Of a stretch of 42,197 bases of DNA, positions 2,344-40,046 are shown in pieces. Positions within the stretch are counted from its first letter, which is position 1; each line of letters begins with the position of its first letter. This DNA is from a virus, in the IMG/VR virus record IMGVR_UViG_3300018080_000290, positions 1 to 42,197 of that record. One strand, 5' to 3'. Under the pieces are notes generated by a model. That model did no database searches. It was not told the origin of the DNA and saw only the letters and a program-made list of their open reading frames with translations. The translations under genes were made by a program, and so were the position numbers.

Positions 2344-3594
2344 ATGAAAATCATCGAACTGTACGCGGAAAACGTGAAACGAATCAAGGCCGTTCGAATT
2401 AAACCGGACGGCTCCCTCATCGTCATCGGCGGGGAAAACGCCCAGGGAAAGACTTCGGTCTTGGATGCAATTATGGCGGGCCTCGGCGGGAAGGGAAACT
2501 GCCCGGACAAGCCCCTCCGCGAAGGCGCGGAAAAGGGAACCGTTGAAATCGACCTGGACCGGTTCAAAGTGAAAAGGACTTTCACTCCGACCGGCGGGGG
2601 CCAACTGACCGTCGCCAACAAAGACGGGTCCCGGTTCCCGTCGCCCCAGTCCATGTTGGACGACCTGCTCGGGGAGTTAACCTTTGACCCCCTCGCCTTT
2701 GCCAAGTCGAAGGAAAAGGAACAAATCGAGATGCTCCAGAAAATTGTCGGCATCGACTTCGACGATTTCAACAAACGATTCAAGGAGGACTTCGACGGGC
2801 GGACCGACGCGAATCGGGAAATCAAAAAGCTTACCGTGGCCATCGAGGAACTGGAGAGGCAAGTCCCGAAGGACGCGCCGCTGGAGGCGGTGTCGGTGTC
2901 GGGGTTGATTGAAAAACTCCAAGAGGCGCAACGGCATAATGAGAAAGTCCGGGAAGCGGTCGACCGGGTCAGCGGTTCCAAGTTGTCCTTGAACACCGCC
3001 GCCGGTGAAGTTGCCCACTTAGAAAAACGATTGAAACAGGCACGGATGCGACACGCCATGGCCCTGAAGTCTTTGAAAACGAACCAGGTAAACCTGGCCT
3101 CGATGCAGAAAATTAACACCGACCACATCGAGGAACAAATCAAAGAAAGCGAATCGAAAAATATCCTGTTCCGGAAGGCGGAATCGTTGAAACAACTGAC
3201 CCAGGAACGGCGCGGCTGGTACGGCACCGCCCGCGACCTGTCCGCGAAGTTGGAGGGCATCCAAAAGGAAAAGGCGGATGCGATTGCGGCCGCCCATCTT
3301 CCGGTGTCGGGTTTGAGTTTTGACGACGACGGCATAACGTACAACGGGCAACCGTTCAGCCAGGCCTCCGACGCGGAACAGTTGCGGGTGTCCGTGGCCT
3401 TGGGGATCGCCGCGAATCCGGAGTTGAAGGTTTTGTTGATTCGCAACGGTTCCCTCCTGGACAAGAAGAACCTGGCGCTCGTTGCGAAGATGGCGGAAGA
3501 GGCCGGAGCGCAGGTTTGGATGGAACGGGTCGGCGAGGACGAGGCAACAACGATAGTCATGGAGGATGGGGAGGTGCGCGATGCCAGTAATTAA
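2344..3594 (+). CDS. RecF/SbcC-like AAA ATPase with degenerate Walker B
   Basis: A 416-residue ATPase of the SMC/RecF/Rad50 type, probably working in phage recombination or DNA end processing. The N terminus has the usual 'ENVKRIKAV' strand and a Walker A, GENAQGKTS, near residue 30. The middle is a coiled coil (roughly 150-320). The C-terminal head has a weak signature (SDAEQLRVSVALG), and where Walker B is expected it reads LKVLLIRNGSLLD, lacking the usual consecutive acidic residues. It ends with VWMERV and EDGEV strands. The protein is short for SbcC, with little room for a long arm. AAAAGGAGACGAC precedes the ATG. Confidence 0.75.
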   Translation: MKIIELYAENVKRIKAVRIKPDGSLIVIGGENAQGKTSVLDAIMAGLGGKGNCPDKPLREGAEKGTVEIDLDRFKVKRTFTPTGGGQLTVANKDGSRFPSPQSMLDDLLGELTFDPLAFAKSKEKEQIEMLQKIVGIDFDDFNKRFKEDFDGRTDANREIKKLTVAIEELERQVPKDAPLEAVSVSGLIEKLQEAQRHNEKVREAVDRVSGSKLSLNTAAGEVAHLEKRLKQARMRHAMALKSLKTNQVNLASMQKINTDHIEEQIKESESKNILFRKAESLKQLTQERRGWYGTARDLSAKLEGIQKEKADAIAAAHLPVSGLSFDDDGITYNGQPFSQASDAEQLRVSVALGIAANPELKVLLIRNGSLLDKKNLALVAKMAEEAGAQVWMERVGEDEATTIVMEDGEVRDASN

Positions 3595-6405: not shown

Positions 6406-6675
6406 ATGGCGGTAAGACTGAAACAAACGATGAACTGGACGTGCGATGCCTGTGGCGAAAAACACCAGGACATTCTCGAAGTCGGCTTCGAGGAAGAGTG
6501 GAGTGAAGCCCTGGCGCCAGAGGGATGGCACCCGGTCCAAAGGGGCGACGGGGAATGGATGTTCTTTTGCCCGGCGCACACGTTGATTCTTCAGGCCTCG
6601 ACCAAAGGGCCTCCGGTCGTGTTTGAGTTGAAGCGGGGGGTTAAGAAAATTTCCTTGAAGGGAGGAAAGTCATGA
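6406..6675 (+). CDS. Small zinc-motif protein
   Basis: An 89-residue protein with WTCDACGEKH near residue 12 and FFCPAHTLIL near residue 53, together a possible CxxC...CxxH zinc site. AAAGGAGTGAATC, two bases before ATG, fixes the start. It directly follows a terminator-like stem, so it may start a separate transcription unit. Its stop overlaps the next ATG. Function unknown. Confidence 0.6.
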   Translation: MAVRLKQTMNWTCDACGEKHQDILEVGFEEEWSEALAPEGWHPVQRGDGEWMFFCPAHTLILQASTKGPPVVFELKRGVKKISLKGGKS

Positions 6676-7016
6676 CGGAACACAAAACCGACGACGGCCT
6701 TGGCAAAGTCCTGCGGGACGGATGCGCGGAAACCGACGCGGTCTACTTTTGCCCCCACTGCCACGAGCGAATCGTGATGGAAGTGAACCTGGTCGCCCCC
6801 ATGTTTTCTAAGAAATTGAATCGGTTCGGCGAATGGGCGCGGGACGTGACCTGCCCCTGGTGCCACAGCGGCCGGGTCTTTTACGACCGGAACGAACCGA
6901 CCCTCCGCAGGTGCGGGCGGTGCCATGCGGAATGGGATCACGCCGCCCTGGAGGCAACAGCCATTCCGCCCGTAAAAACACCGGCGGAACCTGCCAACGG
7001 CGCAAAGAAGGAATGA
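6672..7016 (+). CDS. Triple CxxC zinc protein
   Basis: A 114-residue protein with three Cys pairs: CPHC, CPWC and CGRC, each followed by His or a polar residue (CPHCHE, CPWCHS, CGRCHA). Two could complete a zinc ribbon while the third pairs with His. The tail is Pro/Ala-rich. GGAGGAAAG precedes the ATG. It is the most Cys-rich of the small early zinc proteins; a nucleic-acid- or protein-binding role is likely but not shown. Confidence 0.6.
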   Translation: MTEHKTDDGLGKVLRDGCAETDAVYFCPHCHERIVMEVNLVAPMFSKKLNRFGEWARDVTCPWCHSGRVFYDRNEPTLRRCGRCHAEWDHAALEATAIPPVKTPAEPANGAKKE

Positions 7017-7099: not shown

Positions 7100-8577
7100 C
7101 GACTTACCTCCTTTTGGCAATCGTGGCGGGGGTCGCGGTCGCCCGGATCGTTCTCCGGAGGCCGCTGTGGCCGTGGCTCCCTGCTTTCGATTCGCCTGGT
7201 AAAATCAACCCGGATGAAACGATTCCCGATCCGCCGGCCGATGGGCGCGGCGGGTACCGGGCTGCAGAGGGGGAGGCGGCCCCTCGCGGCGGTGGCTGGC
7301 TCCCGGTCGTCTTTGTCGACGAGGACGACATGACGACGGGGGTTGAATCTTTGGACCCCGCCGATGTGGAAGTGTCCTACTGGAACCACGGATCCCTGGT
7401 CCGGCGGAACGTGGAAACCTTCGGATGGAAAGAGCTTACAAACGGACACTACCGGATCGGGTTGCCCGGTGAAGTTTTTACAAACGAGGGACCGTTGGGA
7501 TTCTCTGTGTCGGCCCCAGGCTGTTTGCCCTTCGTGGACACCGTCTTGGATGCCGAGCCGGTACGGCTTCGGGATTCCGAGGGACGTTTCACGACCCCGG
7601 AAAAACTCGAGGCAGCCCGGTTCCCGGAATGCGACGGCACGGAAGAAGGCCCGGCCCCCTGGCTACTTTCCAGGGAAACTATCGCGGCGCAGGCGGGATT
7701 GGACTGGGACGAAGAGAAGGGCCGAGTCCGGACGGAACCTCCGCAGAATAATATCTTTACAAAGGTTTACCTTGGGGCCTCGTCCGTCGACCTGGAAGGG
7801 TACAAGGGGAAACTGGTTCTGGACCGCGACGGGGAAACCCCCATCGGCGTGGTAACGGACTGCGACGCCCACGGCAACGCGACCATCGCCCTGACCGGGA
7901 ACCTTCAATTCGACGCCGGGGACGACATCGGGATCGGTGGTTTCCGCGACCCGGACGACGGCTCCCTCTCCACGGAAGAAAAGGCGGCCCTGGCTGGCGT
8001 TATACGGGATTGGATGGGCGACACGCCCAAGGACACCGGTCCCCACGTCGAAGCCCCGGAAATCGAACCAGAGGCCGCTCAAACGAGCCAGGAATCGGAC
8101 GACGATGAAGGGGACGACGACCCGCCGACACGGCTGGAAGTAATTTCCCGGTGCCTGGTCGCCGCCGCGAATGCCGGGATTTCCGTCCGGGAAGCCTCAA
8201 ACGCCTTGTTATCAATGGTTTCCGTGTTGAACGGCCGCGGGGATCCGGACCCACGGAACGACTGGCCCACGGAGGAACAGGCACGAGCCGAAGTCCGGAA
8301 GTGGGGACACGATGCCGGGAAGGCCGCTGCAGAAGAGTTGAATCGGGCGGTGTTTGAATCCCTCGCCCCGCCGGAACCAGGGACCGTGACCATCGAGGCC
8401 GATGGGACACGGGTCACCGCCTCGATTTCCCTCGATACCGACACCGAACAACGATTTCAACAAACGATTCAAGTCTACGAAGCCATCGACAAACTGGGAA
8501 TGGCCGGGGAAGTCAACCCGCAAACCATCACCTTTCACTCCCCGGACGAAGGCGGCGGAACGTACGGTAGGCGATGA
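7096..8577 (+). CDS. Membrane-anchored protein with tail-type beta domain
   Basis: A 493-residue protein. Residues 4-20 form an N-terminal hydrophobic segment (LLLAIVAGVAVARIVL). Residues about 68-152 resemble residues 13-105 of the fibre encoded at 30875: WLPVVFVDEDD against WIPIILIDDTD, WKELTNGHYRI against WEEVGLGVYRI, and GPLGFSVS against LGLFIAHV. A second beta-rich part follows (230-290), then an Asp/Glu-rich linker (about 330-350) and a helical/beta end. Tail-type domains usually occur in virion proteins, so a membrane anchor in an early gene is odd. It may be a display or exclusion protein; this is inference. Confidence 0.55.
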   Translation: MTTYLLLAIVAGVAVARIVLRRPLWPWLPAFDSPGKINPDETIPDPPADGRGGYRAAEGEAAPRGGGWLPVVFVDEDDMTTGVESLDPADVEVSYWNHGSLVRRNVETFGWKELTNGHYRIGLPGEVFTNEGPLGFSVSAPGCLPFVDTVLDAEPVRLRDSEGRFTTPEKLEAARFPECDGTEEGPAPWLLSRETIAAQAGLDWDEEKGRVRTEPPQNNIFTKVYLGASSVDLEGYKGKLVLDRDGETPIGVVTDCDAHGNATIALTGNLQFDAGDDIGIGGFRDPDDGSLSTEEKAALAGVIRDWMGDTPKDTGPHVEAPEIEPEAAQTSQESDDDEGDDDPPTRLEVISRCLVAAANAGISVREASNALLSMVSVLNGRGDPDPRNDWPTEEQARAEVRKWGHDAGKAAAEELNRAVFESLAPPEPGTVTIEADGTRVTASISLDTDTEQRFQQTIQVYEAIDKLGMAGEVNPQTITFHSPDEGGGTYGRR

Positions 8578-8596
8578 AATTTCAGCGCTTTTTTCC

Positions 8597-8626
8597 TTGA
8601 CAGCCCCCCACGGTCCCCGGTACGGT
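8597..8626 (+). promoter_or_regulatory. Weak sigma70-like promoter candidate
   Basis: TTGACA at 8597-8602 is a perfect -35 box. The best -10 is TACGGT at 8621-8626 with an 18-base spacer, a poor match. It lies 20 bases after the stop of the 7096 gene and upstream of the stem at 8653-8710. Confidence 0.25.
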
Positions 8627-8652
8627 GTCGGACGTGCAGCGCCATTGTACAT

Positions 8653-8710
8653 AGGGGCGACGGCTCGAGAGGTGCTAGACGCCCGCCAGACGTGGCCGGG
8701 CCTCGCCCCT
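8653..8710 (+). terminator. Stem with long loop
   Basis: AGGGGCGA (8653-8660) pairs with TCGCCCCT (8703-8710), eight pairs enclosing 42 bases; TAAAATG follows rather than a T-run. It resembles the other long-loop stems of this genome and may end transcription of the early operon. Confidence 0.35.
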
Positions 8711-8964
8711 TAAAATGTGAATGCGAATGTGAATACAAAGGGCGGCAGTAAGTCGTTCAGTCGGCGCGGGCCGTGTGACTGACTGCAAAGCAGAGGCGAA
8801 CGGGCGCAACCCCTGCCGCCCCAAAATCCCAAGGGACCCGCCGGGGGACGCGGAGAGAGTTCAACCCCCAAAGCGCCCCCGGCATCCCTCCCCAATTCTC
8901 CCTCGATTCTCCCTCGCACAGAAAGCACTACCCAAGACCCCCTTCCAAAAAACAACAAACCCAC

Positions 8965-9136
8965 TAACCCCGCGCCTTTCAAAGCCAATTCCGGACAGCC
9001 CTGTCCACAACCGGACACAGATGGCCGCCCCCTCCAAAAATCAAAGGATCCCATAACCCCGCACCTTTCAAAAGGAAAAACGGACACGCATGACCAAAAC
9101 CGGACACGCATGGCCGCCTCCGGACATCCCTGTCCG
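8965..9136 (+). repeat. Two-unit iteron array (second origin candidate)
   Basis: Two units 89 bases apart. Each begins with a 19-base box, TAACCCCGCGCCTTTCAAA (8965-8983) and its copy with one change (9054-9072). Nine bases after each box start 16-base sites beginning CGGACA: 8992 and 9012 in unit 1; 9081, 9101 and 9121 in unit 2, all spaced exactly 20 bases. Site 9121 (CGGACATCCCTGTCCG) is the exact reverse complement of the main iteron in the replication gene at 38218; site 8992 matches the fourth iteron inverted at 15 of 16; the others match at 12 or 13 of 16. Probably bound by the same initiator. Confidence 0.75.
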
Positions 9137-9154
9137 CTTTTACGCCTCGGGAGA

Positions 9155-9190
9155 GGGGAAAGGGGGGGGACTATAGGGGGGGGATTGGGG
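9155..9190 (+). other. G-quadruplex-type sequence
   Basis: Four G-runs on the + strand: 4 G (9155-9158), 8 G (9162-9169), 8 G (9176-9183) and 4 G (9187-9190), with loops of 3, 6 and 3 bases. It begins 19 bases after the last iteron. This meets the usual G4 pattern; formation in the cell is not shown. Confidence 0.55.
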
Positions 9191-9332
9191 TGAGGGTCTT
9201 CGAAGGTTCCTACTGATCCCCTCTTGAAAAGGTTTACTCTTAGGAGATCGCACACTGGCGACGCGACCCCCTCAAAAGGACTCCCGACAACTCCTGAGCA
9301 ACAACGGACAACAACGGGCAGAAAAAAACTTC

Positions 9333-9361
9333 TTGACAAAAATCAGAGCATCGTGGTAACA
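9333..9361 (+). promoter_or_regulatory. Possible late promoter before TerS
   Basis: TTGACA at 9333-9338 with an A-rich flank, and GTAACA at 9356-9361 after 17 bases as a poor -10. It lies about 110 bases before the TerS start and downstream of the iteron array. It is the best candidate for starting the packaging and head operon, but only the -35 is convincing. Confidence 0.3.
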
Positions 9362-9469
9362 CGGAAAACCAGATTACCCGTACCGAGTACTCGAAAACTC
9401 ACACATCAATCCACACACCACAGGCCCCTACCCCACGATCCGAAAACACAAGGACAACTCACTAAATCC

Positions 9470-10012
9470 ATGGGCGAAAAAAAACGACGACCACCAAATA
9501 CCAAATTCACCAAGGCAAACGTCGACCGCATCCTGCAACTGGCAAAACTCTTAACGCCTAAAGAATTCATCGCAAAGGCCGTCGGCATCACCCCAAAAAC
9601 CCTTAACAAATGGCTCAACGACCACAAACGGCTGCCATGGAAAATGAAGGTGGCAGAAACTGAGCACGGGGAGCCAATCATGGGTCGGCCTTTGTTCGAC
9701 GTGGTCTACAAAAAAGCGGAGGCCGAGGGGGTAGGCTACAACCTTGGGCTCGTCCAGCAGGCCGGGAAGCGCTCCTGGCAGGCGGCCTGTTGGCTACTGG
9801 AAAGGAGGCACCCGGTATACTTTGGGAAGGTGGAGAGGGGGGCTGTGGCCGGAGGTCAAAAGAAGGACAGGCCCCAACTACCCCCCGATGCGGTACGCGC
9901 CCTGGAGGGATTGGACCCCAATGCCCTGCGTAGGTTCCGGGAATTCGTGAAGCAGTCCAAGGTGCGGGCAACACAACCTGGGCAGGGGCAACAGCTTAGG
10001 AAAGTGACTTAA
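9470..10012 (+). CDS. Terminase small subunit (probable)
   Basis: A 180-residue protein placed directly before TerL. Residues about 15-50 form a helix-turn-helix (RILQLAKLLTPKEFIAKAV, then ITPKTLNKWLND), fitting a DNA-recognition TerS. The C-terminal half is basic with a Gly-rich tail. ATG at 9470 starts MGEKKRRPP; AAGGA lies rather far upstream (about 15 bases). The frame is open back to 9224, but that part has the biased composition of the non-coding region. Base use flips inside the gene: C-rich before about 9620, G-rich after. Assignment rests on HTH plus position. Confidence 0.7.
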   Translation: MGEKKRRPPNTKFTKANVDRILQLAKLLTPKEFIAKAVGITPKTLNKWLNDHKRLPWKMKVAETEHGEPIMGRPLFDVVYKKAEAEGVGYNLGLVQQAGKRSWQAACWLLERRHPVYFGKVERGAVAGGQKKDRPQLPPDAVRALEGLDPNALRRFREFVKQSKVRATQPGQGQQLRKVT

Positions 10013-10272: not shown

Positions 10273-10566
10273 CAACAAGAGAGCAGGAGGAGGTGGGCAA
10301 AGGATGACCCCCCATACAGCACTAACATTGGAATGTATACCATCTTACTGTACTACTTTGGCGACGGCGGGCCGCCCGGCGAACACAAAACAAAAGCCAT
10401 CCGGGGGGTCCAGGTCGATTTTGATACAACTCCATTTTTTGGCCCTTGGGGAGATCCGGGGAGGGGCAGGGTCCTTTCTTGGTCTTAAGATTTGGGCACC
10501 TCCCCGTTGGTGGCGGGAAAAATATTATTTGGATTTTGGGGGGGTATCTTAGGGATGGGACGAGAC

Positions 10567-12378
10567 ATGACGAAGGCGCTTCGGGACAGTAAGGGGAAGT
10601 TCCGTAAGAAGCGTGGGAGGCCCTCTCGGGAGGATTTGATTCGTCAGGGGCGTTTGCCGAAGGCGGGTACGGCGGTCGGCGGGATGCCTTGGGAGGATCC
10701 GTTGATTCGTGCCTTGGAGGGGTTGAGTGTAGAGCAGATGGACGTGGGCCTGGAGATGGCCTTGCCCAGCATTTGGGCAGAGCGGAACCGTTGGATTGGG
10801 GGTCGTCCTTGGAGTTTTGCTGGTCGGGAGTATTTGATTGGGATGATGGACTGCCGGAAGGGGGATGTGGTTTTTAAATGTGGTCGTCAGGTGGGGAAGA
10901 CTCAGGGGTGGATGAATTTGATTTTTCATCTGCTCGATTTTAGGGCATGGAGTGTATTGATTGTTTTTCCGACCGGCGACGAGGTGAGCGTATTTTCGAA
11001 GGACCGGTTCACTCCGGCCTACGAGGAGAGCCCGCGGCTGCAGGAGTTGTTTTCGTCGGTGGACAACGTGCATCACAAGCAGACGGCGGCGCGGGTAGGG
11101 CGCCAGGCGGCGAATGTGTATTTGCGGGGGAGTCTTTCGCGGAGCAAGTTACAGAGTATCTCTGTGCAGAAGTTGGTCATTGATGAACTGGACTTTTGCA
11201 ACGAGGACAATTTGAAGTCAGCGGAAGAATGCATGAGCGGGCACCTGGAGCGGGGGACGTGCAAGGTTTCGACGCCGACGGAGCCGGAGATTGGGATTGA
11301 AGCGGAATGGGACCGGAGCGACCAGAGCCACTACTTTTTGAAGTGCCCTCGGTGCAGTGAGGTTCAGTTTATGGACTGGCCAGACTCGGTGGAGTGGAGG
11401 GAGGGGCGGGCGGACACGGCTCGCTACCGGTGCAAGAAATGCAAACGGCCTTGGGAATGGCAATCGGTCCGGGCGATGGTGGCCCGTGCGGCGGACGAGG
11501 ACGGCCTCGGATGGGTGCCTGCGTACCCTGGCCGGGACATTGGGGGCTTTTGGTTGCCGCAGCTGTACAGCCCAACGGTGTTGCCCTCGAAGGTGGTCCA
11601 GGACTTTGAACTGGCGCAGGGCAATGCCTCTGCGGAGGCGGACTTTCACCGGTTTAAGATTGGGAAGGGCTTCGTATCGGCCGGATCGCACATTACCCGC
11701 GAGATGGTGGAGGCGGCCAAGCACCGTGGCGGGGGTCAAATGAAGCACAGTTCCATCGGGGCCTTTATGGGGATCGATGTTGGGGTGCCGGTGAAGCACG
11801 TCGACATTTCGGAGTACCCGAATGGGGTCTTGGGGAACAAGCACCTTCTTTGGGCGGGGGAGGTCACAGATTGGGCAGAGTTGGGCATGTTGATGCGGCA
11901 GTACTCAGTGGCGGCCTGTGTGATTGACGCCAATCCGGAGCGGTCGAAGGTGGAGGAGTTTCGGGACGAATTCATGGGGCGGGTGTTCATGGCGTTTTAC
12001 CCGAACGACACCTACCTGCAGCGGAAGGAGAACTGGAACCTGGAGATGGGGATCGTCACGATGCACCGGACTTACTACCTGGACCAGGTGACGGGGCGCT
12101 ACCGGATTGGGACGGTCCTTCTTCCGCGGGACGTGCCGGAGGACTACGGGAACCATCACCTGAACATCGTCCGGGTCGAGAAGGAAGACCAATACGGGAA
12201 TCCGGTCGCTCGTTGGGCGAAGCGGGGAGCGGATCACTTTGCGCATGCGGCGGCCTACTGCGAGGCGGCGGCCCGCTACTTTGGGGGCAGCATGGAGGAA
12301 GACTTGTTACCCGAGGACACCGCTCCCATCGAGGAGTTCGTACAAATGGAGGAGTTACATGGACAGCCCTTCTTTTAG
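10567..12378 (+). CDS. Terminase large subunit, GpA type
   Basis: The packaging motor and nuclease, 603 residues from this start. The ATPase part has GRQVGKT at 106-112 and Walker B LVIDEL at 203-208. A zinc ribbon (CPRC near 264 and CKKC near 290) separates it from the nuclease domain, where GIDVGV, VIDANPE and a late DHFAHAAAYCE supply the expected acidic residues. This is the lambda GpA-like family, so cos-type ends are possible. ATG at 10555 is an alternative start; GGGACGAGAC favours 10567. Codons are unusually rich in G and T early in the gene. Confidence 0.92.
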   Translation: MTKALRDSKGKFRKKRGRPSREDLIRQGRLPKAGTAVGGMPWEDPLIRALEGLSVEQMDVGLEMALPSIWAERNRWIGGRPWSFAGREYLIGMMDCRKGDVVFKCGRQVGKTQGWMNLIFHLLDFRAWSVLIVFPTGDEVSVFSKDRFTPAYEESPRLQELFSSVDNVHHKQTAARVGRQAANVYLRGSLSRSKLQSISVQKLVIDELDFCNEDNLKSAEECMSGHLERGTCKVSTPTEPEIGIEAEWDRSDQSHYFLKCPRCSEVQFMDWPDSVEWREGRADTARYRCKKCKRPWEWQSVRAMVARAADEDGLGWVPAYPGRDIGGFWLPQLYSPTVLPSKVVQDFELAQGNASAEADFHRFKIGKGFVSAGSHITREMVEAAKHRGGGQMKHSSIGAFMGIDVGVPVKHVDISEYPNGVLGNKHLLWAGEVTDWAELGMLMRQYSVAACVIDANPERSKVEEFRDEFMGRVFMAFYPNDTYLQRKENWNLEMGIVTMHRTYYLDQVTGRYRIGTVLLPRDVPEDYGNHHLNIVRVEKEDQYGNPVARWAKRGADHFAHAAAYCEAAARYFGGSMEEDLLPEDTAPIEEFVQMEELHGQPFF

Positions 12379-14587: not shown

Positions 14588-15665
14588 CAAAATCTGGGAC
14601 CGGATAATTAAGACCCGTGCCGGTCACATCCGCTACGAGCGGAAGACGGCCAGGCGGATCCGCCGGACGTTCCGATCCGTACGGGATGAAATCCTGGGGT
14701 ACTTCAACAACCAGGCGAATGACATTGTTTCGACGTATTCCGCCGCCCGCCGTCGGTACCTGGTAGACACCATCGACGGGTACCTCGAGCGGGGCCGCCA
14801 CGAGAGTTCGTGGGAAGTTTATGACGCGATGACCGGGACCGCCCGCCGGGAGGCCGAGGAAACCTACGATGCCTTCCGGTCCGAAATCCCGAGCGAAATA
14901 GGGCTCAGTTTTTACGCAGTCCCGGAGGACTTTTTAATCGCCATCGCGGATCAGCCGGTGATGGGGAACTACACCATGGGCCTGGTCAACTACGGCGACA
15001 AGTGGAGCCGGGACGCGGCGACCCTCCTGGACAAGGCGCTCATGCAGTCCGTGGTCAACGGGGAAAACGTCGGCCAGTTGGCCCGGCGGATGGCCCTGGC
15101 CGTGGGGGTCCAAAACTACGCAATGCAGGCCTTCGCCCGGACCGCGATTCAAACGGCGGCGCACAGGGCGCAGATGGAATTCTTCCGGCGAAACAAAGAA
15201 GTAATTAAGGGGGTGCAATGGGTTGCCATTTTGGACGATGCCTGCTGTGACACCTGCGCCGGGTACGACGGCCGGATTTTTAAACGGAGCGAGGCCGTCC
15301 ATCAACCGGTGCACGTTAAATGCCGATGCACCTATTCGGCGGTCACGAAGTCCTGGAAGGAACTTGGGCTCAAGGGAGACGAGGCGCCTCCGTGGATGCG
15401 CCGGACGATGGATGGAGAGGTACCAGAGACAATGACCTTCAAAGATTGGATTGATAAAAAGATGAATTCCAAGACCGGGCGCTCGTGGGTCCGGGACTGG
15501 ATGGGGCCGGGGAAGTTTGAGCTTTTTAGCAACGGCCTCATAACCCTTGACGACATGGCCATTCGGACACGGCGAAAGAACCGGGTCCGCTCCTTGGGCG
15601 ACCTTCGAAGGATCGCAACAAGGAGGAGACGAAAAAAGGAGGAAAGTTTATGCCTGATGAATTAA
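14574..15665 (+). CDS. Mu F / SPP1 gp7-like minor head protein
   Basis: A 363-residue minor capsid protein, thought to enter the procapsid with or near the portal. The diagnostic block is near residues 218-258: WVAILDDACCDTCAGYDGR, then PVHVKCRCTY, the conserved D-x3-C-x2-C ... H-x2-CRC pattern. The N-terminal half is helical. The C-terminal 100 residues are basic, ending in an Arg/Lys-rich stretch that may touch DNA. The start lies inside the preceding gene. Confidence 0.85.
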   Translation: MGANDKIWDRIIKTRAGHIRYERKTARRIRRTFRSVRDEILGYFNNQANDIVSTYSAARRRYLVDTIDGYLERGRHESSWEVYDAMTGTARREAEETYDAFRSEIPSEIGLSFYAVPEDFLIAIADQPVMGNYTMGLVNYGDKWSRDAATLLDKALMQSVVNGENVGQLARRMALAVGVQNYAMQAFARTAIQTAAHRAQMEFFRRNKEVIKGVQWVAILDDACCDTCAGYDGRIFKRSEAVHQPVHVKCRCTYSAVTKSWKELGLKGDEAPPWMRRTMDGEVPETMTFKDWIDKKMNSKTGRSWVRDWMGPGKFELFSNGLITLDDMAIRTRRKNRVRSLGDLRRIATRRRRKKEESLCLMN

Positions 15666-35361: not shown

Positions 35362-35583
35362 ATGATCCGGAGATCAGTAATTTCCCTTCGTCGGTTGTTC
35401 CGGACCAGCGGCCTCACGCAACAGGGATTTGCGGACCTGTTCGGGGTGCACCTTTCCACGGTGCGCCGTTGGCTCCACGGCCACGGCCGCCCGTCCTTTT
35501 TGGCCTGGTGCCGCATCGACCAAGTCCTGAACGGGGAATGGGTTGCACCCGTAACTAAGCGGGACACGAACCAGGCCGCGTAA
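35362..35583 (+). CDS. Cro/CI-like helix-turn-helix regulator
   Basis: A 73-residue DNA-binding protein. The HTH is SGLTQQGFADLFGVHLSTVRRWLHG (residues about 16-40), with Q/R positions typical of Cro-type factors. GGGGAGGTGTAAA precedes ATG. It is placed just before the early promoter (35637), with a terminator between, so it likely represses or tunes that promoter. No cI partner is seen. Confidence 0.75.
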   Translation: MIRRSVISLRRLFRTSGLTQQGFADLFGVHLSTVRRWLHGHGRPSFLAWCRIDQVLNGEWVAPVTKRDTNQAA

Positions 35584-35793: not shown

Positions 35794-36744
35794 ATGGAAC
35801 ACGACCAAGCCAATCCCGAAGCCGTACAGGCAACCCCCATGGAACCGGCCCCGGTGCCTGCCACTACGTCGGGGCACATGCCGACACGACTGACCCCGGA
35901 AAACCTGGCGGCCGTGGAGGAGAACATTCGGATGTTGCAAGAGTTGAAGTTGATGGCGATTTCCGGAACGAATCCCCAGGACTGGATTTTAATCGCGGAC
36001 CGCCCCTACCCGCTCGATGCGGCGCGGTCGAAGATGGCCTCGTTGTTCGGGGTGTCCTTCACCGACATCCGATACGAGGCGGACAACTACGAGGACGAGC
36101 GCGGCCCGGTCAAGGGGTACATCGTTCTGTTGAAGGCCCACTTCCGGGGAAACGTCATCGAGGAAACCGGCTCCGCTTATTCGTGTGAACAGTTTTTCAA
36201 CCGGCGGGCGGAATGCGATTGTAAGAAAAACAAGGACTGCCCCAAGTGCCACGGGCGCGGCCGGTACACCAAGCGCCTCCCCCTTTCCGAGATTCCCGTG
36301 GGGAACGTCCGGAAGAAGGCGGTCACGAATGCGAAGGGCCGGGCCTTCCGAACCATCCTGGGAATCAATTTCACAAAGGAGGACTTACACATTGGGCTCC
36401 AAAAGGGCGGCAAGGATCCTAGTAAGCTTACCGGGTACAGTTTCAAAGCCCCGGCCGGAAAGAAGAAGGCACCGGCGAAGAAGAAACCGGCGGCCCCCTT
36501 CGACCAGGCACCCGACGAGTTGACCCCGGAAGAGTACCGCCAGGAAATTCACAACATGGCGATGCAGTTTGCCAACGGGGACGAGTCGCAGGTGCCGGGG
36601 ATCATCGACTACTTTACTTCGTGGGAGAAGGACGGGAAACAAATGCCTGGCAAAGATAAAGTCCAAGACATCTCCGACAAACAGGCACCGGTCACCTACC
36701 GGGAAATGCGGAAGGTTGCCAAGGAGAAAGGATTTATCGAATGA
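35794..36744 (+). CDS. Putative single-strand annealing protein
   Basis: A 316-residue early protein directly before the exonuclease gene, the usual place for a phage recombinase or annealing protein. The N-terminal 200 residues form the main domain (DWILIADRPYPLDAARSKMA, EDERGPVKGYIVLLKAHFRG, ending with RTILGINF). Inside it is CDCKKNKDCPKCHGRGRY (residues 146-163), like one DnaJ-type zinc module. A Lys/Ala/Pro linker (about 221-235) leads to a small helical end. The annealing role is inferred from position and layout; no signature proves it. Confidence 0.5.
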   Translation: MEHDQANPEAVQATPMEPAPVPATTSGHMPTRLTPENLAAVEENIRMLQELKLMAISGTNPQDWILIADRPYPLDAARSKMASLFGVSFTDIRYEADNYEDERGPVKGYIVLLKAHFRGNVIEETGSAYSCEQFFNRRAECDCKKNKDCPKCHGRGRYTKRLPLSEIPVGNVRKKAVTNAKGRAFRTILGINFTKEDLHIGLQKGGKDPSKLTGYSFKAPAGKKKAPAKKKPAAPFDQAPDELTPEEYRQEIHNMAMQFANGDESQVPGIIDYFTSWEKDGKQMPGKDKVQDISDKQAPVTYREMRKVAKEKGFIE

Positions 36745-37769
36745 AAACGTATCCGAATTTTGTCCAGCGGTTGTACGATGCGGCGGCCCGGCGGCGGAAG
36801 GTGTTCCCCGCGTACACCTGCCGGGCGAGTGAAATTGGCGGGGACTGCATTCGACAAATGGCGTATGGGATTTTGCATCCGGAGTTGGCGGTCCTTCACT
36901 CGGTCGACCTTCAACTGATTTTTGACGAAGGCAACCTCCACGAGGAAGACGTGAAAATCAAACTGGCGATGGCCGGGGTGTACATCCACGAACAGCAAAG
37001 GGCTCTGTCCTGGAAGACCGACACCTTTCACATCACCGGCCACGTTGATGGGGTGTTCCCCCTCGAGGAAGGAGAGCGGGTCGTCGCGGTGCCGTTGGAA
37101 ATCAAATCGATGAGCGAACATATCTGGAATTCGATTTTCTTCCGGGGTCCGGCGGTGTACGCCTGGGACGAAGTAAAAGGCGGTTTTCAAACGAAGCCCT
37201 GGTTAAGGAAGTACTTCGGACAGATTTCCTGTTACATCAAACAGAAGGACACGGATCGCGGGGTGTTTCTTTGTAAGAACAAAACCACGGGGGCCATCGG
37301 CCAGGTTAACGTGGAACGGGACGAGGCCTACCTTGGGCAGTTGGTTTCCGTGGCGGAAGAGTTGACCCGGTACATCCGGCGCGAGGAGTTACCCCCGAAG
37401 ATTGCCTTCGATCCCGACGTGTGCGGCCGGTGTAGGTTTGCGGATTCATGTGTCCCGGATCAAATCGCCGAGCCGGTTGCGTACACCGCCGAACCGGTCA
37501 TCGTTGGATGGGCGGAACAACGATGGCAGAATGCCGATGCCCGGAAGTTGTACGAGGAGGCCGACAAAAAACTCAAAGCCTGGGCGAAGGCAAACGACTG
37601 GATCAAGTTCCAGGTGCCCGGCTGGTTTTTTGAAAAGAAAAAGCACGGCAAAGGAATCCGCGTAGACATCAAACCCGCCGCCGGGGGTATGGAAACCCTC
37701 GAAAAGGCGGAACAAGCCACGAGGTGGAACGATGAAAAAAACAAAGATGATGACAGTGCCGCAAGTTAG
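36741..37769 (+). CDS. Cas4-like PD-(D/E)XK Fe-S exonuclease
   Basis: A 342-residue nuclease with all core Cas4/AddB-type elements: Cys36 in GGDCIRQ, H67 in EGNLHEED, D103 in GHVDGVF, E120-x-K122 in PLEIKSM, a following QxxxY (GQISCY), and C-terminal cysteines C228, C231 and C237. The four Cys should hold a 4Fe-4S cluster. It probably resects DNA for the annealing protein upstream; the genes overlap (ATGA). The last 100 residues are extra, helical and charged. Confidence 0.85.
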   Translation: MKTYPNFVQRLYDAAARRRKVFPAYTCRASEIGGDCIRQMAYGILHPELAVLHSVDLQLIFDEGNLHEEDVKIKLAMAGVYIHEQQRALSWKTDTFHITGHVDGVFPLEEGERVVAVPLEIKSMSEHIWNSIFFRGPAVYAWDEVKGGFQTKPWLRKYFGQISCYIKQKDTDRGVFLCKNKTTGAIGQVNVERDEAYLGQLVSVAEELTRYIRREELPPKIAFDPDVCGRCRFADSCVPDQIAEPVAYTAEPVIVGWAEQRWQNADARKLYEEADKKLKAWAKANDWIKFQVPGWFFEKKKHGKGIRVDIKPAAGGMETLEKAEQATRWNDEKNKDDDSAAS

Positions 37770-37947: not shown

Positions 37948-38706
37948 TTGATTTTAAACTTGGCGGACGTGAAACGACTCGCGGCAAAGAAACTGACGGC
38001 GGCCGAAGCCCTGTTGTATTTGTATTTGCGGTGCCTGGAAAACAAAGGCCGGGCCTGGCCCGCCATGGGGACGATGAAGGAGGACTTAATCCTTTCGGAA
38101 CGGACCCTGCGGCGGTGCCTTTCTTCCCTCGAAAAGAAGGGGGCGATTTCCCAGGCGCCAACTGGTCTAAACAAGGGCAGAATGGTGATTTTAGAAAGCG
38201 GCTTTTTCGACCAAAAACGGACAGGGATGTCCGGACAGGGATGTCCGACGGCGGACAGGGATGTCCGGAAAACGGACAGGGCTGTCCGCCCGGCATTACA
38301 TAATAATGACTTAATTTATCCTAAAGAGAAGAACAGCGGCGCAACGAAATTGGAAACCGTCCCCCCCGTCCCAAAGGAATTGGTCGGTTTGGAACTGTAC
38401 GAAAAGGACTTAAAAGCTTGCAAACGGCTCCCGGAAATGTTGCCGGTTTGGAAGTCGACTTATCCGGCGGTGAACATCCCGGATTTGATTCGGCGACTTC
38501 ACGCCTGGGAGATGGCGGTGCCGGTCCAGGAACGGAAGAAGGATCGGATTCGGTTTTTCCACAACCGCATCGCGGCGGAACAGGAACGGGCGGATCGCCG
38601 GGGGACTTGGAAACCGCCCTGGGAAAAGAACCAGGACGATTATGAAAAGCGGTTGATTAAAAAGATGGGAGAGTTGGATGGACATACCAGCGCAAAAAAA
38701 GCTTGA
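37948..38706 (+). CDS. Replication initiator, lambda O-like
   Basis: A 252-residue protein with TTG start behind GGGAGGGGG. Residues about 10-85 form a winged helix (LTAAEALLYLYLRCLENKG, MKEDLILSERTLRRCLSSLEKKGAI), the usual DNA-binding domain of phage initiators. Residues 91-114 are a linker whose DNA is the iteron array. A helical C-terminal domain (about 140-215) probably contacts the helicase loader encoded next. Layout equals lambda O, with origin inside its own gene, followed by a P-like gene. Confidence 0.8.
   Translation: MILNLADVKRLAAKKLTAAEALLYLYLRCLENKGRAWPAMGTMKEDLILSERTLRRCLSSLEKKGAISQAPTGLNKGRMVILESGFFDQKRTGMSGQGCPTADRDVRKTDRAVRPALHNNDLIYPKEKNSGATKLETVPPVPKELVGLELYEKDLKACKRLPEMLPVWKSTYPAVNIPDLIRRLHAWEMAVPVQERKKDRIRFFHNRIAAEQERADRRGTWKPPWEKNQDDYEKRLIKKMGELDGHTSAKKA
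38218..38335 (+). repeat. Replication origin: four iterons and AT-rich stretch
   Basis: CGGACAGGGATGTCCG occurs at 38218-38233, 38232-38247 and 38252-38267, and with one change (GGGCTG) at 38273-38288. Each is a near-palindrome. Steps are 14, 20 and 21 bases. An AT-rich stretch follows (38293-38335), suitable for strand opening. Arrangement as in lambda ori. Confidence 0.85.
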
Positions 38707-39253
38707 GCGATTTTTGGTTCTGTACAAAGCCTACTTCGGGCCGTTCCCGAAAATCGACGACGATGGCCTGGACGTTTGGCGGCGGTTCCTCTCGGAGGTG
38801 TCCTTCGAGCGGATCGACGAGTTGATGGAAAAGACTGCCAACGAATGGGCCTTCGCAAAGTCGCCCCGGTTGAAAGCCTTCCGGGATTCCTGGTTCCGGA
38901 TGCGGAAGGCAACTGGACAACGAGAGCGCCGGGGGTGTAACCTTTGCGGGAAGACCGGATGGATGGGATTCCCCGGCGGGAAGAACACGGAAACCGGCGC
39001 GGTCTTTCTCGACCGGGAGAGCAAGTACTCTTGGGCCGTCCCGTGTGAATGCGATGCCGGGCAACAAAAGCCCCTTGGGTTTAGCCGGGCGCTTCAGAGG
39101 GAGGTGCGGGCGTACCGCATCGAGCGGTACGAAGAGTTGAAGGAATGGAAACAGGCACTTGGGGAAAACGTCCTGGATGGAGCGAAGCAAGTTTTAAGAG
39201 ACACGAATCTCCTTGCGCAGGGATCCCCGCCGGTCAGGAGGTGGACGCCATGA
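38678..39253 (+). CDS. Helicase loader candidate with zinc module
   Basis: A 191-residue protein following the initiator, as P follows O. The N-terminal 70 residues resemble loader proteins of the G39P/P kind (VLYKAYFGPFPKI, then DVWRRFLSEVSFERID and a KAFRDSWFRM helix). Next comes CNLCGKTGWMG and CECDAG (residues about 87-130), a CxxC...CxC zinc module seen in phage primosomal proteins. No DnaB or primase is encoded, so host helicase is probably recruited. The start lies inside the initiator gene, behind GGGAGAGTTGG. Confidence 0.6.
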   Translation: MDIPAQKKLERFLVLYKAYFGPFPKIDDDGLDVWRRFLSEVSFERIDELMEKTANEWAFAKSPRLKAFRDSWFRMRKATGQRERRGCNLCGKTGWMGFPGGKNTETGAVFLDRESKYSWAVPCECDAGQQKPLGFSRALQREVRAYRIERYEELKEWKQALGENVLDGAKQVLRDTNLLAQGSPPVRRWTP

Positions 39254-39516
39254 AAATTGGCATTTGTTTGAACCTAGATTTAGAACCACCCCCTATCAAA
39301 AAACGTTGGCTCCGAGTAGGTGGAAAACTTTGTGTCATTTTAAAAATGTGGATTATCCAAGTGGAAGAGGGCCGGGAGTGGTTAAAAAAAAACAGATACA
39401 ATGAAGTGTGTGATAATTTAAGGACATTAACAATTGGCGTTTCTGAAATATTGTCTGAATACAGTGCTGTTCCTAAATGGACAATAGTTCGATTGTTTGG
39501 AGTTAAAAAAACGTGA
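39250..39516 (+). CDS. AT-rich hypothetical protein
   Basis: An 88-residue protein of unknown function behind CAGGAGGTGGACGCC. Its codon and base use are clearly AT-richer than those of both neighbours (many TTT, ATT, AAA), which suggests recent acquisition. It has a run of nine A (near 39386-39394). Mostly helical by pattern (LRTLTIGVSEILSEYSAV). Its stop overlaps the GTG of the resolvase gene. Confidence 0.55.
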   Translation: MKIGICLNLDLEPPPIKKRWLRVGGKLCVILKMWIIQVEEGREWLKKNRYNEVCDNLRTLTIGVSEILSEYSAVPKWTIVRLFGVKKT

Positions 39517-40046
39517 AACTACTTTCTTTCGACCCCGGAACGGTGAACATGGGATGGGCGGCCTTGGACATTTACATCACCAAGAAAAACCCGACCCGGT
39601 ACACCTGGGACTACGGGACAATCCAGACCCCGTCCGGATGGAAGATTCAAAGCCGGTTGTGGCGGCTGTACGTTGAGGCCCAGCGCCTGGTCGTCGTGCA
39701 CGACCCGACGATGATCCTGGTAGAGGAGGTTTACACAAAACCCTCGAAGGGATTTAAGACTGGGGCAACCGTGGCCATGGCAAAGGCCCTGGTGTACCTG
39801 TTGGCCGGACAACTTCAAAAGCCGATTGACGTGTTACAATCTTCGACGGTCAAGAAATGGGCGGTCGGTTCCGGCCGGGCCTCGAAGGAACAAGTAGCAA
39901 AAGGGATGAAAGATTTGTTGTTGGTTCATCGACAAGGAGAGGATCCCTTTTGGGAGTTGCCGGACCAGGACGGCGCGGATGCCATGGCGGTTTGTTGGGC
40001 CTGGTGGAACCGGTACGACGAAGAAAGAAAGGCGGTTGAAAAATGA
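39513..40046 (+). CDS. RuvC-type Holliday junction resolvase
   Basis: A 177-residue resolvase of the RNase H fold. Catalytic acids are visible: D7 in LLSFDPGTVNMGWA, E71/E72 in ILVEEVY, and D153 with D156 in DQDGADAMAVCWA near the end. GTG start overlaps the previous stop. It probably resolves replication or recombination branches before packaging. Confidence 0.85.
   Translation: MKLLSFDPGTVNMGWAALDIYITKKNPTRYTWDYGTIQTPSGWKIQSRLWRLYVEAQRLVVVHDPTMILVEEVYTKPSKGFKTGATVAMAKALVYLLAGQLQKPIDVLQSSTVKKWAVGSGRASKEQVAKGMKDLLLVHRQGEDPFWELPDQDGADAMAVCWAWWNRYDEERKAVEK

Follow-up and report, generated by a model that had tools for sequence, protein, structure and literature searches.

Two separated arrays of the same palindromic iteron are present in the phage genome analyzed here, IMG/VR record IMGVR_UViG_3300018080_000290, of which the window (the whole stretch of DNA that we examined) covers 42,197 nucleotides. 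Array A consists of four perfect iterons within the gene for an O-like replication initiator, and array B of five iteron-like sites in non-coding DNA upstream of the gene for the terminase small subunit, terS. On the basis of the sites that the two arrays have in common, we propose that the phage's own initiator, the product of the gene at 37948-38706, probably binds array B as well as array A. More tentatively, we suggest that B may act as an auxiliary initiator site comparable to oriR of the Bacillus phage SPP1. The switch from circle replication to concatemer synthesis in phages is still largely a model, and it is chiefly for SPP1 that a second initiator site has been credited with a part in it. 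An SPP1-like layout built on other iterons, in a phage for which no close relatives were detected, would point to the remote initiator site as a solution that can be used more than once.

Array A and its AT-rich neighbor have the typical look of a replication origin. The four iterons begin at 38218, 38232, 38252 and 38273 on the plus strand (array 38218-38288, with steps of 14, 20 and 21 bp), and all four match CGGACA-N4-TGTCCG with no mismatch in the 12 defined bases. They lie within a plus-strand gene (37948-38706) encoding a 252-residue protein with an N-terminal winged helix-turn-helix (wHTH), as identified by PHROG and Pfam matches and by a wHTH profile described below. The protein matches replication initiation families in PHROG (E 2e-6 to 9e-4) and HTH_36 in Pfam above the cut-off, and it resembles lambda O only by way of the PHROG O-like family (E 5.3e-5). 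Adjoining the array is an AT-rich, thermodynamically unstable stretch at 38294-38334, a candidate DNA unwinding element that falls at the 0.02 percentile of 40-bp stability and is among the two least stable stretches in the window. A lambda-type origin is built in the same way, with iterons in the initiator gene and an AT-rich stretch after them; lambda itself is not known to carry a further iteron array at a distance.

The replication region around array A encodes several further proteins on the plus strand: a Cas4-domain exonuclease (36741-37769; phrog_1990, E 2.4e-23), a protein without a family match whose gene lies directly 3' of the initiator gene, in the helicase-loader position (38678-39253), and a RuvC-like Holliday junction resolvase (39513-40046; Pfam RuvC, E 1.8e-12; phrog_159, E 1.9e-21). 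The predicted structure of the 38678-39253 product has a mean pLDDT of 37.8, too poor for use. Neither a single-strand annealing protein nor a helicase was identified in the window. A small helix-turn-helix regulator gene is located at 35362-35583.

Array B occupies positions 8992-9136, in the non-coding DNA where the early genes give way to the terminase genes, and ends 334 bp before the start codon of terS (9470-10012, plus strand; phrog_4102, E 2.2e-9); the terminase large subunit gene lies at 10558-12378 (plus strand; phrog_675, E 5.6e-73). Its first and last sites, both on the minus strand, are palindromes with intact five-base arms. Site 1 (8992-9007), with one mismatch to the iteron, is the reverse complement of the 38273 iteron at 15 of 16 positions, while site 5 (9121-9136) is perfect and, when reverse-complemented, identical to the iterons at 38218, 38232 and 38252. 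Read on the opposite strand, the cores of these two sites are the two N4 cores found in array A. That B carries both of these cores on the opposite strand is not required by the sharing of a palindrome alone, and it supports B as a second locus of the same initiator. The three inner sites, all on the plus strand, retain the left half CGGACA and have a degenerate right half: TGGCCG in site 2 (9012-9027; one mismatch) and site 4 (9101-9116; one mismatch), and TGACCA in site 3 (9081-9096; two mismatches).

The coordinates given for both arrays in the initial annotation were all confirmed, and parts of its description can now be refined. It had reported one site as an exact reverse complement of the main iteron, which holds for the site at 9121, and the site at 8992 is a second of this kind at 15 of its 16 positions. 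It had described all steps as 20 bp; this is true within the units (20 bp in the first, 20 and 20 bp in the second), and the step between 9012 and 9081 is 69 bp. Its separation of about 29 kb between the arrays corresponds to 29.2 kb on the linear record, and shrinks to 13.0 kb when measured across the ends of the record, should the genome be circular or circularly permuted. No terminal repeat was found in the virus record. Finally, the two units said to lie 89 bp apart, each with a 19-bp box, are the two copies of a single, uninterrupted tandem duplication of 89 bp (8939-9027 and 9028-9116, both plus strand), identical at 67 of 89 positions (75%) with no gap between them. The boxes are present as described, at 8965-8983 and 9054-9072 on the plus strand, with 18 of 19 bases identical, and they occur nowhere else in the window. 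Since box and spacing were copied together by one duplication, their repetition in both units is not independent evidence.

The pattern of identity between the two copies is nevertheless uneven, at 18 of 19 positions in the box, 12 of 12 in the left half-sites and 2 of 8 in the spacer (P about 0.02-0.03 each). The box and left half-sites are better kept than the spacer, which hints at constraint. Thirteen base pairs past site 5 begins a block of G runs (9149-9196, plus strand) that includes two runs of eight G and a G-quadruplex motif.

The case for array B rests on the clustering of its sites, their exact steps and the N4 cores that they have in common with A. Five sites with at most two mismatches fall within 150 bp at B, compared with a maximum of two in 150 shuffles of the whole window and, as a local control, a maximum of two in 3000 shuffles of the surrounding 870 bp. 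Over the whole window, 23 sites have at most three mismatches against 26.3 expected; as this count is not enriched, the signal lies in clustering and site quality. A scan of the window with the consensus of array A found nothing within one mismatch except the four A sites and two of the B sites; behind these, at three mismatches, came two further B sites and one site at 15087. When a matrix was built from the iterons of other phages, the eight top-scoring positions all fell inside A or B. Block-shuffled controls for this matrix had maxima that averaged 11.1 bits and in one case reached 17.2, and because they attain such scores the weaker B sites do not reach significance by the matrix alone. 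The whole-genome scan called for in the initial annotation, run here in these two forms, where the worry was many equally good sites elsewhere, placed comparable sites in A or B only.

Beyond this genome, our survey defines a widespread pairing of iteron and initiator in which second sites can be sought. Tandem GGACA-N4-TGTCC pairs occur in at least 119 stretches of viral contigs, distributed over more than 100 contigs. Among the matches listed, most arrays lie inside an open frame, commonly some 90-130 residues from its start, and 52 of the 84 distinct frames of at least 150 residues carry a recognition-helix-like motif ahead of the array, compared to 1.5 in shuffled controls. We built a wHTH profile from those 52 frames, leaving out the window's own protein, and searched it against the 517 frames of the window: the O-like product ranks first (E 4.5e-11), followed by a small HTH protein (7e-4). 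At the level of sequence, this result ties the iteron to the winged helix, as an association rather than a proof of binding. The idea that one initiator acts at two loci fits these observations, in that the same palindrome and cores recur at A and B, no other comparable site exists in the window, and the initiator belongs to the matching winged-helix class.

A second array is uncommon in the records that we surveyed. Searching the whole records of 72 contigs, we found the array covered by a profile-matching frame in 46, of which 34 are at least 25 kb long; the profile was partly built from loci also among these 46. In none of these 46 records, which may be fragments, did two or more sites form a further cluster. 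Two arrays about 0.8-2 kb apart were seen in two other records, outside the 46. In one of these (L185), palindrome pairs at 3054, 3088, 3898 and 3933 flank a repressor-like helix-turn-helix gene in an operator-like arrangement. In record L186, a palindrome cluster at 2925, 2946 and 3019 lies just upstream of a small frame and a 730-residue frame and does not fall within an initiator gene. The same palindrome core is also common in assemblies of Verrucomicrobiota, Acidobacteriota and Planctomycetota, where it is dispersed, mostly as inverted pairs, and REP-like; these bacterial palindromes (loci L210-L325, from genome contigs) in some cases number several per assembly. Because it is so common in this form in bacteria, the palindrome alone is not diagnostic of an initiator site.

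The closest parallel to the layout of the two arrays is SPP1. In this phage the initiator G38P binds at two places, oriL within gene 38 and oriR, which lies about 13 kb away on the circle in a long intergenic region, and oriR-bound G38P has been proposed to stall a replication fork, leading to concatemer synthesis through an exonuclease, an annealing recombinase and a resolvase (PMC6316719, PMC3485210). Here too, one array lies in the initiator gene and a remote intergenic array contains the same kind of repeat, the distance between them on a circle would be alike, and the genome encodes an exonuclease and a resolvase, in this case Cas4-domain and RuvC-like. The systems differ in the sequence of the repeats and in the placement of the remote array, which is inside the late region in SPP1 and directly upstream of terS here. 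They differ further in that SPP1 oriR has an AT-rich unwinding element, whereas B has none adjoining: no unstable stretch lies inside or beside B, which falls at the 9-11 percentile of stability at 40 bp, and the nearest is about 185 bp downstream, at 9320.

Since an unwinding-type stretch is found at A and none at B, B looks like an auxiliary site rather than a complete origin, and its resemblance in layout to the oriL/oriR pair leads us to read it as an oriR-like auxiliary site, a reading that we hold as quite possible without favoring it outright. An unwinding element was sought at both arrays and found at A only, and for this reason we do not file B as a member of the SPP1 type. Against the oriR-like reading stand the lack of a second cluster in the 46 other records, the degenerate right half in three of the five B sites, and the failure to identify an annealing protein or a helicase in the window. 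A dual layout is known experimentally from SPP1; what differs here is the use of other iterons, the lack of an adjoining unwinding element at B, and the position before terS. As the origin part seems to be missing from B, a system of this kind could allow the roles of barrier and origin to be told apart. A proposal of one replication protein acting at two separate loci also has a counterpart in satellite phage P4, whose alpha protein binds both ori1 and crr. Replication of P4 requires both loci, which are a few kb from each other, and its initiator is a primase-helicase fusion.

By analogy with SPP1, we propose that early replication would start at array A and its adjoining AT-rich stretch, and that initiator bound at B would hinder an incoming fork or mark a late-replication site, perhaps with help from the neighboring G-run block. 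The exonuclease and the RuvC-like resolvase could then turn circle replication into the concatemers needed for packaging. A role of B in fork arrest or in the late-replication switch is possible but tentative, and we consider a fork barrier or late-replication site more likely than a primary origin.

Several other explanations of array B have to be weighed against an oriR-like auxiliary site. The initiator might regulate the late (terminase) operon from B, activating or repressing it with rising initiator levels. The location of B in non-coding DNA, 334 bp before the terS start codon, is what such a regulator would occupy, and a TTGACA hexamer at 9333 lies between the two; however, a promoter scan of 8500-9600 returned no sigma-70-like promoter, and B would be about 200 bp upstream of the possible one, far for direct contact, making this account unlikely. 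For the coupling to late transcription or packaging that the initial annotation envisaged, the evidence is the position of B. Its other suggestion, a second independent origin at which melting and helicase loading take place, is weakened by the 9-11 percentile stability of B against 0.02 at A, with the closest soft spot some 185 bp away, and by a GC skew without a clear B-specific turning point. Although B has the same initiator sites as A, and SPP1 oriR is termed a (late) origin in the literature, we judge this distinctly unlikely. It is slightly less probable again that B is bound by another protein, whether the HTH regulator encoded at 35362-35583, a host regulator, or the terminase small subunit at a packaging site. 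The window does encode such a small regulator, B adjoins terS, and in L185 the palindrome flanks a repressor-like gene; yet the intact B sites have the N4 cores of A, and A itself lies inside an initiator gene of a class that widely carries the iteron. Lower still in probability is a version of the auxiliary-site proposal in which initiator bound beside terS would arrest the fork at B, so that broken or concatemeric DNA would arise right beside the packaging genes and site, and the close of circle replication would be physically joined to the onset of packaging.

Extra iteron clusters are also known from plasmids, where P1 incA and F incC adjoin the rep gene and serve to control copy number. 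By comparison, B might titrate or pair the initiator and limit initiation at A, and an array without an adjoining unwinding element would suit this purpose. B resembles these clusters in being a second iteron cluster outside the core origin but, in contrast to them, it lies far from the initiator gene and beside packaging genes; copy-number control would moreover be of little value if the phage is virulent, and we consider titration very unlikely. The least probable account is that B has no function and is a decaying tandem repeat or a set of REP-like intergenic repeats of the sort present in some host groups. Very similar palindromes are indeed dispersed in assemblies of Verrucomicrobiota, Acidobacteriota and Planctomycetota, and three B sites are degenerate. 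Those bacterial elements, however, are mostly inverted pairs with flanks of the GTAA, GTAG or GGAG type, whereas the B sites are direct, without such conserved tetranucleotide flanks, stand at exact 20-bp steps, carry the cores of A and have kept their half-sites after duplication.

Searches for relatives covered viral contigs, genome contigs and annotated phages. No relative was found in scans of viral contigs with TerS, TerL and the O-like protein or of genome contigs with TerL, and the O-like protein, the portal and array-B DNA had no match among annotated phages. Matches of TerL, capsid and ATPase to annotated phages were all below 60% identity, and Rhodobacter phage RcKemmy and Microcystis phage Mae-JY22, considered as comparison relatives, proved too distant. 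Across all three collections, we found no relative that has a region comparable to B. Triple CGGACA at 20-bp steps occurs at 56 other loci, mostly simple repeats or coding sequence, and none of these matches B. The last 18 bases of the 19-bp box recur exactly in one other contig, in apparently coding sequence without iterons, which we take to be chance. A literature search for the iteron sequence returned nothing relevant.

Some further features of the window were noted. Around array B (8820-9145), the plus strand is 41% C and 13% T, and this strong strand bias gives rise to long chance frames on the minus strand; we rejected a 209-residue minus-strand ORF across B as a gene, as it matches no family and fits the base bias. 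No Rfam family was found in the window, and ARAGORN identified no tRNA in it, the tRNA-like stretch at 8740-8821 included; this stretch has a long closing stem, and its fold is mildly better than that of shuffled sequences (z -1.98). The gene at 2344-3594 encodes an AAA-ATPase/DNA-repair-like protein (phrog_1499, E 1.3e-97) with about 41% identity to proteins of Arthrobacter phages, and a small protein encoded at 6672-7016 weakly matches the cytochrome c and zinc-ribbon families.
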